Positions 44,966-49,363 of a stretch of 64,000 bases of DNA are shown one piece after another. The notes below the pieces were generated by a model, which worked only from the letters and a program-made list of their open reading frames with translations, was not told where the DNA came from and made no database searches. The stretch comes from Paenibacillus sp. E222 (lineage in GTDB: Bacteria; Bacillota; Bacilli; Paenibacillales; Paenibacillaceae): positions 3,782,001-3,846,000 of the forward strand of contig NZ_CP058552.1 in the NCBI RefSeq assembly GCF_013401555.1, given 5' to 3'. The translations under genes were made by a program, and so were the position numbers. Position 1 is the first letter of the stretch; the number at the start of each line of letters is the position of its first letter.

Positions 44966-47900
44966 ATGTCTGATGAAAGAAAAAGGGTGAATATTAAAGC
45001 TTTTTTAGAAGGAAGATCCTTTCGAGCGGGATCACCGTTTATTCCAATTACATCGAGTGAAGTGGAGCAGTTTGAGTCCATTTTGAAAGCACTGGCATTG
45101 ACTATTCCTGTAGCTGTAAGTCAGCCTACAGCGTCTAATATTCTCGCGTTGCAAAACAGTTTACGGAGTTTGCTCACTTTTGTTAATACCTCTGGTTTTC
45201 GAGCTGGGGTGAAAGCGGAGTTACAATCCGTTCTGGAACTAACTATAGCAGGTTCTGAAGTTGTACCTGTAGCCGTCATCAATCTGGCTGGCAACTTGCA
45301 AAATTTGCTCGATGATTTGTTAAGTATAACGTTGCTTCTGGAAGTTCCGCCTGCGGAAAAAGATAAACTGGTCGGATTGATTCGCTCCATATCTGTATCC
45401 TTGAGTCGTGCTACCAGTTCATTTGGTACATCGGGAACACCCGGTCCTCCAGGCCCCCCGGGAGTTCCAGGAGTTCCAGGAGTTCCAGGTGTTCCCGGAG
45501 TCCCAGGTCCGGCTGGCCCAGGGGGGACAGTTGGGCCAGTGGGCCCGGTAGGTCCGGTAGGTCCGGTAGGTCCTCAAGGGCCCCAAGGTGTACCAGGTGC
45601 GCAGGGGCTGCCGGGAGTTGGACTGTATGATATATCCGTTTTTGATCCAGCTCAGGCACCTGGCTATGTGCAAGGTCAAGTAGTTTCGTATAACGGCAGT
45701 CTTTATGTTGTTAACGTGAATGATCCTACCGGAGTACCGGGAAGTTCTCCAGACTACACGTCGTTTTTGTCAGGAGGAACGACTGGAGCAACAGGGGCAG
45801 GTTTTACGGGCTCTATTCCATTCGATCAGGCGCTCGCACCAGGTTATCCGGCAGGACAAATTGTAACATTTGGCGGTAGTACCTATATTACTAATGTGGC
45901 ATCGCCAACGGGAACACCGGGTAGTTCACCGGATTATACTTTGCTAGCAGCGGCCGGAGTTACTGGAGCCACCGGGGTAACAGGTGTGGGACTCGGTGGT
46001 TCTGTTCCGTTTGATCCGGCAGTAGCACCAACGTATCCAGCGGGTCAAGTCGTAACGTTTGATGGCAGCACGTATATTGCAAATGTCGCATCGCCAACGG
46101 GAACGCCGGGAACATCCCCTGATTACATATTATTGGCTGGTGCTGGGGCAACGGGTGCGAAAGGGGCAACCGGCGTCGGTGTAACGGGCGCAACCGGAAA
46201 TACGGGTGTAACGGGAGCCACCGGTGCAGGCCTGACAGGCGTCGTTCCATTCGACCCAGCAGTAGCACCAACGTATCCAGCGGGTCAAGTCGTAACGTTT
46301 GATGGCAGCACGTATATTGCAAATGTCGCATCGCCAACGGGAACGCCGGGAACATCCCCGGATTACACGTTGCTGGCTGGTGCTGGGGCAACGGGTGCGA
46401 AAGGGGCAACCGGCGTCGGTGTAACGGGCGCAACCGGAAATACGGGTGTAACGGGAGCCACCGGTGCAGGCCTGACAGGCGTCGTTCCATTCGACCCAGC
46501 AGTAGCACCAACGTATCCAGCGGGTCAAGTCGTAACGTTTGATGGCAGCACGTATATTGCAAATGTCGCATCGCCAACGGGAACGCCGGGAACATCCCCG
46601 GATTACACGTTGCTGGCTGGTGCTGGGGCAACGGGTGCGAAAGGGGCAACCGGCGTCGGTGTAACGGGCGCAACCGGAAATATGGGTGTAACGGGAGCCA
46701 CCGGTGCAGGCCTGACAGGCGTCGTTCCATTCGACCCAGCAGTAGCACCAACGTATCCAGCGGGTCAAGTCGTAACGTTTGATGGCAGCACGTATATTAC
46801 GAATGTCGCATCGCCAACAGGCACCCCAAGAACGTCCCCAGATTACACGTTGCTGGCTGGTGCTGGGGCAACGGGTGCGACAGGGGCAACCGGCGTCGGT
46901 GTAACGGGCGCAACCGGAAATACGGGTGTAACGGGAGCCACCGGTGCAGGCCTGACAGGCGTCGTTCCATTCGACCCAGCAGTAGCACCAACGTATCCAG
47001 CGGGTCAAGTCGTAACGTTTGATGGCAGCACGTATATTACGAATGTCGCATCGCCAACAGGCACCCCAGGAACGTCCCCAGATTACACGTTGCTGGCTGG
47101 TGCTGGGGCAACGGGTGCGACAGGGGCAACCGGCGTCGGTGTAACGGGCGCAACCGGAAATACGGGTGTAACGGGAGTCACCGGTGCAGGTTTGACAGGC
47201 GTCGTTCCATTCGACCCGGCAGTAGCACCAACATATCCAGCGGGTCAAGTCGTAACGTTTGATGGCAGTACGTATATTGCAAATGTAGCATCGCCAACGG
47301 GAACGCCGGGAACATCCCCGGATTATACGTTGCTGGCTGGAGTAGGAGCTACGGGAGCGACAGGGGTTACCGGAGTCGGTGTAACGGGAAGTACCGGAGC
47401 CACGGGAGATACGGGAGTAACCGGAGCAACAGGGGTCAGTGTAACCGGAAGTACCGGAACAACCGGAGATACGGGTGTAACTGGGGCGACTGGAGATACA
47501 GGAGCTACGGGGGTAACTGGAGCTACAGGGGTCAGTGTAACCGGAAGCACCGGAGCCACGGGAGTAACCGGAGCAACCGGAGCAACCGGAATAATTGGAG
47601 TTACGGGAGAGACAGGAATCACCGGAGCCACCGGAGCGACGGGATTAACCGGGGCCACTGGGGTTGCGGGCTTAACGGGTGCAACAGGGGTCAGTGTAAC
47701 CGGAAGTACCGGAACAACCGGAGATACGGGTGTAACCGGAAGTACCGGAACAACCGGAGATACGGGTGTAACTGGAAGCACAGGAACAACAGGCGTTACG
47801 GGGGATACTGGATCAACGGGAGTAACAGGTGCTACTGGAGTGAGCGTCACAGGAGCAACTGGGGCAACTGGAGGTACAGGAGCAACTGGGGCAACTGGAG

Positions 47901-49363: not shown

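Follow-up and report, generated by a model that had tools for sequence, protein, structure and literature searches.

Tryptophan-free modules of predicted CBM5/12 fold in the collagen of a probable Paenibacillus surface fibre

Collagen-like proteins of the BclA type (BclA, BclB and the F-BclA/L-BclA proteins) combine a non-collagen N-terminus, a long Thr-rich collagen stalk and a C-terminal BclA_C/C1q-like domain. BclA chains are joined into a trimer by this C-terminal domain, from which the triple helix starts, and the protein is anchored through its N-terminus. Here we describe a gene with the same parts, and with a candidate late-sporulation promoter, in a stretch of 64,000 nucleotides (the window) from Paenibacillus sp. 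E222, a member of a genus common in soil and on roots (NZ_CP058552.1, positions 3,782,001 to 3,846,000). Its 1465-residue product differs from BclA-type proteins in having a predicted helical preface domain, in showing no exosporium leader in family scans and in having its collagen broken by eight modules with the fold of carbohydrate-binding module (CBM) families 5 and 12 (CBM5/12). This long collagen fibre, with CBM5/12-shaped beads devoid of tryptophan, is probably a surface fibre.

The modules share with the CBM5/12 domains of the chitinases ChiA1 of B. circulans, ChiC of Streptomyces and ChiB of Serratia a small three-stranded fold, a YxxGQxVxYxGxxY core and a P...[WY] end. They differ in that every Trp is replaced, in their length of 52 residues and in lying inside collagen rather than being attached to an enzyme. 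A comparable layout is described in the cited passages on streptococcal Tal phage tail fibres, in which CBMs are separated by collagen-like linkers (PMC9437275); these too are trimeric fibres with binding modules between collagen-like stretches, but they are viral, have other CBM folds in those passages, and no relative of the module was found in the phage records or viral contigs that we searched.

Collagen interleaved with CBM5/12 is widespread in sequence databases, and the window protein is not alone in this design. When the Trp-bearing protein P0006 was used as query, in a search that scored only candidates sharing most words, 3,593 proteins were returned, and both the Collagen and CBM_5_12 labels were present in 120 of the 120 matches listed. 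Proteins P0006–P0125 combine collagen triplets with CBM5/12-like modules as the window protein does, many of them also with CBM96; they retain the last-position Trp, and BclA_C occurs in none among the matches listed. The four with organism names belong to Acidobacteriota. The initial annotation had called the design unusual, which is partly right: the combination is common in databases and phage fibres of this kind have been published. Among the open-licence PubMed Central papers found, none describes a spore protein combining collagen with CBM5/12, which is no claim of absence from print. In the same literature, no paper was found on a collagen-like protein with a carbohydrate-binding module on Paenibacillus spores, on a collagen-like protein with chitin binding in the exosporium, or on ChiA1 W687, and for collagen fibres of Paenibacillus spores only an ENA preprint was found.

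The module and its place in the collagen chain

A hidden Markov model (HMM), built in this analysis from a module alignment, finds exactly eight copies in the window protein, each of 52 residues and scoring 67–90 bits, with collagen linkers between them. The repetition is far beyond chance, since modules 4 and 5 are identical at the DNA level and module 1, which shares just 52–54% of bases with the other modules, is yet found by the same profile. The initial annotation had read eight 50-residue modules interleaved with collagen triplets, a resemblance to CBM5/12 and a BclA-type C-terminus; all three readings hold, with the module length corrected to 52, and BclA_C does follow the collagen stalk. 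All modules lie within the N-terminal 54% of the chain (residues 219–793), and no module interrupts the collagen between residue 794 and about residue 1336. The units are therefore not spread over the whole fibre, which corrects the further claim of a fibre with sugar-binding units along its length.

Family membership was assessed at several levels. A Pfam scan of the whole protein returns Collagen, BclA_C and eight CBM_5_12 stretches, the last with 79.4 bits against a cut-off of 26.2. We dropped such whole-protein scores as proof because summed repeat scores inflate unrelated families, as in the module protein P0002, which also passes the cut-offs of unrelated families. Scanned singly, three window modules reach 17.6–21.8 bits against CBM_5_12 (E 2e-4 to 4e-3, under the gathering cut-off), and 38 of 41 diverse modules match this family at E 0.01 or better, with no second family. 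A profile search with the modules retrieves the chitin-binding domain of ChiA1; in a control profile without the six Trp-bearing rows of P0006, ChiA1 is still significant and becomes the top match, and ChiC is weaker. A phmmer search of one module alone against solved structures gave no significant match (best E 0.097). The structural check proposed at the outset gave a confident model of module 4 (predicted local distance difference test, pLDDT, 93.8), which matches chitinase CBM5/12 domains in a fold search. The resemblance to CBM5/12 has support from family, profile and fold tests, and by computation the module has the CBM5/12 fold. The fold search also returns CBM5/12-like domains of phage tail fibres and tailspikes (8fqc, 8kec, 9rkv, 8opz). 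A phage origin of the modules was considered and rejected: nothing in 50,697 phage records matched by tblastn at E 0.001, and of 104 pattern stretches picked up in viral contigs none was confirmed.

The protein as a whole contains no Trp, no Cys and 20% Thr. Its preface domain is modelled as a helical bundle (pLDDT 83.3), and the leading peptide of residues 1–22, mostly below pLDDT 50, is yet near-invariant across Paenibacillus orthologs in the alignment. Assignment of the N-terminal domain to a known fold was rejected, as only weak helical-bundle matches were obtained (best E 0.044, root-mean-square deviation near 13). A protein-database search for homologues of this domain scored none among 1,623 candidates, which is a limit of the search, since genomes have the domain. 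Beyond the modules, the GXT stalk is nearly Pro-free and is interrupted by 12 short breaks (GVSVT, GVGVT and GAGVT types); Thr glycosylation might stabilise it. Long open reading frames (ORFs) on the minus strand over the collagen were taken as mirror artefacts of the repeats.

Tryptophan positions and sugar binding

None of the eight window modules contains a Trp. Among 253 distinct module stretches, drawn from the fetched loci, the window and P0001–P0005, 251 are likewise without Trp, and neither of the two carriers has it at position 46. The CBM of the chitinase encoded in the window genome itself (L001), nearly identical to that of ChiA1, has three Trp; in a hand alignment, the module has F8, T39 and Y46 in their places. 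Aligned to the module HMM, position 46 is Tyr in 41 of 41 modules of P0001–P0005 (four Bacillota), versus Trp in 990, a gap in 9 and Tyr in 1 of the 1000 aligned modules of P0006–P0125 (the alignment holds 1041 rows, the domain table 1036). T39 is the commonest residue in the Trp-46 group too (576/1000), and absence of the middle Trp therefore does not set this lineage apart.

In the cited passages on ChiC, two Trp of its CBM5 function in carbohydrate binding (PMC5328894), and those of a second paper report that antifungal action is abolished by removal of the CBM5 or by mutation of its Trp (PMC13220806). Because these residues are lost, chitin binding by the modules is doubtful, and the sugar binding proposed by the initial annotation is not borne out. 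The modules may have a Tyr-based or a different binding site.

Candidate promoter, spore link and possible roles

Upstream of the gene lies a two-block element that we compared in 25 upstream sequences, taken from 48 loci plus the window wherever the start motif and 250 upstream bases were present (L006 and L045 look identical). The blocks TGTCCAAGATAATTTT and CATAWGMTTG are near-invariant, most of the 13 bases between them vary, the GATAA-to-CATA spacing is 17 in 25/25 sequences and CATA is invariant. The -10-like CATAAGCTT is conserved and fits SigK; the -35 region is not of bclA type and gives no SigK fit. According to the cited passages, the SigK promoters of bclA and bclB of Bt (Bacillus thuringiensis) end in CATATGTTA and CATATAATT, with 16-nucleotide spacers (PMC4750369). 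Upstream of the comparator yabG in the same genome stands CATACGAT, a single case with no statistic. The element resembles mother-cell sporulation promoters and is a candidate of this type (sigma-E/K), for which sigma-E may be the factor concerned; mother-cell expression of the gene is likely.

Further upstream, between the resE terminator and the candidate promoter (44824–44862), are the inverted repeats GTTGAAC ... GTTCAAC and GTTC-N6-GAAC, possibly the site of a regulator. Part of this block, CCGTTTAATCTTGTTCAACGTGGAAC, is almost invariant in the 25 sequences, and TTTAATCTTGTTCAACGTGGAAC has a single occurrence in the genome with 3 mismatches allowed. An Rfam search of the upstream region gave seven matches, all under the gathering score, around or just after the resE terminator.

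A spore or surface location is supported indirectly, because relatives end in domains of BclA_C or BclB type and the mother-cell-like promoter is conserved. More specifically, the BclA_C end is also present in module proteins of P. castaneae, Priestia filamentosa and B. velezensis, and the C-terminus of P0004 is the exosporium BclB-related domain (144.8 bits, cut-off 93.15); BclA_C was not found in the module proteins P0001 and P0002. P0004 itself has twelve modules, of which the first eight follow one another directly, with no collagen in between. For an exosporium leader, no family was found at E up to 1 in Pfam and NCBIfam (presence of a leader model in these libraries was left unchecked) or in a Pfam scan of residues 1–154 alone, searches that a short motif can escape. 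No signal peptide or anchor was seen by eye in the N-terminal sequence.

We lean towards a spore-surface filament on the BclA plan, with modules that would serve as trimeric nodes or recognise a glycan other than chitin. The preface domain and the near-invariant leading peptide would attach the protein to the spore, and BclA_C, by analogy with BclA, would trimerise it and start the triple helix. Three chains would wind into a collagen rod opened eight times near its spore-proximal end, with three modules forming a bead at each opening (24 modules per fibre), and the plain Thr-rich stalk beyond the beads would carry the distal tip. Most likely the modules would keep the trimer in register or make weak multivalent contacts with another glycan, perhaps, in view of their proximal position, that of the spore surface itself. 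With every module in the N-terminal 54% of the chain, the protein fits the part of an outward adhesin poorly, and the placement points to a structural role or to contact with the surface of the spore that bears it; the longest module-free collagen lies C-terminal to the modules in P0001, P0002 and P0005 as well. P0003, with modules through most of its chain, runs counter to this pattern.

Other readings share part of this evidence. Purely structural modules, serving as trimeric nodes or spacers that keep the three chains aligned and determine how long and how stiff the fibre is, with a number free to vary, are a possibility that we rate clearly below the glycan-or-node filament. Module number does vary: ten complete single-frame orthologs, that of the window among them, have between 6 and 20. 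Length is fixed at 52 residues, as a pattern-based survey found for 206 of 212 distinct modules, with P0006 the source of all six exceptions; the recurrence of CBM5/12-like domains in phage tail fibres and tailspikes fits as well. However, a spacer would not need strict loop conservation, and trimerisation of the modules is presumed. The loop in question, P36-G38-P40-S43-Y46, is invariant in the 41 diverse modules (the collecting pattern itself demanded P and Y/W there), and counts in favour of working chitin- or cellulose-binding CBM5/12 modules, through which spores would stick to fungal walls, insect cuticle and plant debris via many weak sites. Fold and family membership agree with such binding, and multivalency would make up for low affinity; against this, the Trp residues described as functional in CBM5 domains are absent from all eight modules, and we regard it as the least probable of the readings weighed here.

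It is also unlikely, if slightly less so, that the protein belongs to the vegetative cell surface or biofilm matrix, like ClpA-D of Bacillus amyloliquefaciens FZB42, which the cited passages report to be needed for biofilm and root adhesion and of which ClpD, with a biofilm role, has a BclB-like C-terminus (PMC4319854). A module protein does occur on a B. velezensis plasmid, but neither the N-terminus, in which no signal peptide or anchor is apparent, nor the conserved mother-cell-like upstream element fits this reading. A bolder version of the spore-filament account, which we offer as speculation with little expectation that all its parts hold, would have a CBM5/12-fold lineage, mainly of Bacillota spore formers, that lost the chitin-binding Trp residues, kept a strongly selected loop and became trimeric spore-collagen beads, whose 6–20 copies close to the spore may bind the spore's own glycan and lock the filament layer to it: an anchor belt, not an outward adhesin.

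For the spore-surface filament, a conserved single-locus fibre with countable beads offers a clean genetic handle on spore adhesion. The gene also allows one to ask whether a Trp-less CBM5/12 fold still binds sugar, and provides a natural example of globular domains built into a bacterial collagen helix.

Locus, distribution and repeat variation

The features of the gene are collected in Table 1.

Table 1. Features of the collagen-like gene and its upstream region (window coordinates)
Feature	Position	Strand	Residues	Evidence and remarks
Promoter-like element: TGTCCAAGATAATTTT, 13-nucleotide mostly variable spacer, CATAAGCTTG	44892..44930	+		Upstream alignment; candidate mother-cell (sigma-E/K type)
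Ribosome-binding site AGAGGAGG	44946..44953	+		Sequence; GGAGG region retained in upstream alignment
Collagen-like ORF, Trp-free and Cys-free	44966..49363	+	1–1465	ORF list, composition; from ATG to end of stop codon
N_to_GlyXaaXaa collagen-like repeat preface domain	45047..45409	+	28–148	NF033172, 100.2 bits, cut-off 40
Collagen segment 1 (65 residues)	45425..45619	+	154–218	Sequence; triplets with Pro
Module 1, CBM5/12-like	45620..45775	+	219–270	Module HMM, 67.2 bits
Module 2, CBM5/12-like	45800..45955	+	279–330	Module HMM, 80.2 bits
Module 3, CBM5/12-like	45989..46144	+	342–393	Module HMM, 83.4 bits
Module 4, CBM5/12-like	46229..46384	+	422–473	Module HMM, 90.2 bits; copy folded (pLDDT 93.8)
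Module 5, CBM5/12-like	46469..46624	+	502–553	Module HMM, 90.2 bits
Module 6, CBM5/12-like	46709..46864	+	582–633	Module HMM, 87.9 bits
Module 7, CBM5/12-like	46949..47104	+	662–713	Module HMM, 90.0 bits
Module 8, CBM5/12-like	47189..47344	+	742–793	Module HMM, 89.6 bits
Tandem DNA repeat, 5.8 copies of a 240-bp unit of module and collagen linker	46004..47388	+		TRF score 2441, 95% matches
Long collagen stalk (~540 residues), mainly GAT, GVT, GDT	47345..48973	+	~794–1336	Pfam Collagen, sequence
BclA_C (C1q/TNF-like) domain	48992..49360	+	1343–1465	PF18573, 137.8 bits, cut-off 38

Of 75 same-genus genomes searched, 48 have the module, as do 10 of 398 sampled from the phylum, the window's own being counted in both; in four of these ten the match is weak (E 6e-8 to 3e-4). 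Genome searches found the preface domain in 62 of the 75. A scan of genome contigs located the module at 34 places, which belong to Paenibacillus, Bacillus altitudinis, B. safensis, B. australimaris, Terribacillus and Shouchella, and a search of a plasmid collection gave one record only, from B. velezensis.

The neighbouring genes are ones that we take, from their Pfam domains, to be resE and serA. They stand before and after the gene, respectively, in 12/12 Paenibacillus loci that reach both flanks, out of 25 (L006–L030, some of the same genome or species); contig ends leave resE only at 11 of the 25 and serA only at 2. Neither neighbour was found at the nine other scan loci (L031–L039). In two further genomes (L071, L073), in which the preface domain is only about 50% identical, resE and serA again flank the gene.

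The modules are under strong purifying selection and are kept as proteins. By Nei-Gojobori counts on 257 modules, the median ratio of non-synonymous to synonymous change (dN/dS) is 0.068 within genes (960 of 1245 pairs usable) and 0.075 between genes (20,827 of 31,651 pairs usable), figures that are rough because synonymous change is near saturation. The 240-bp tandem repeat holds modules 3 (from its sixth residue on) to 8. In 95 of 223 cases, the module most closely related to a given one belongs to the same gene, which argues for partial homogenisation by recent duplication. Contig ends fall within 6 kb of a module in 21 of the 34 loci, which are hence shorter than the full flank; draft assemblies thus seem to break at the repeat, and the numbers of modules that they show are unreliable. 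In L010, L021, L029 and L075 the ortholog is broken up into at least two reading frames, perhaps by assembly error in the repeats or as real variation.

Two further loci carry collagen genes. On the B. velezensis plasmid (L080, 4170–7400), the module-collagen-BclA_C gene adjoins a glycosyltransferase gene, unlike the window gene. Elsewhere in the window genome (L005, C1:7296666-7297007), two neighbouring collagen genes form another, distinct pair with the common start MAILSTGPIENN, and a BclA_C match slightly above threshold lies there (41.9 bits, cut-off 38).
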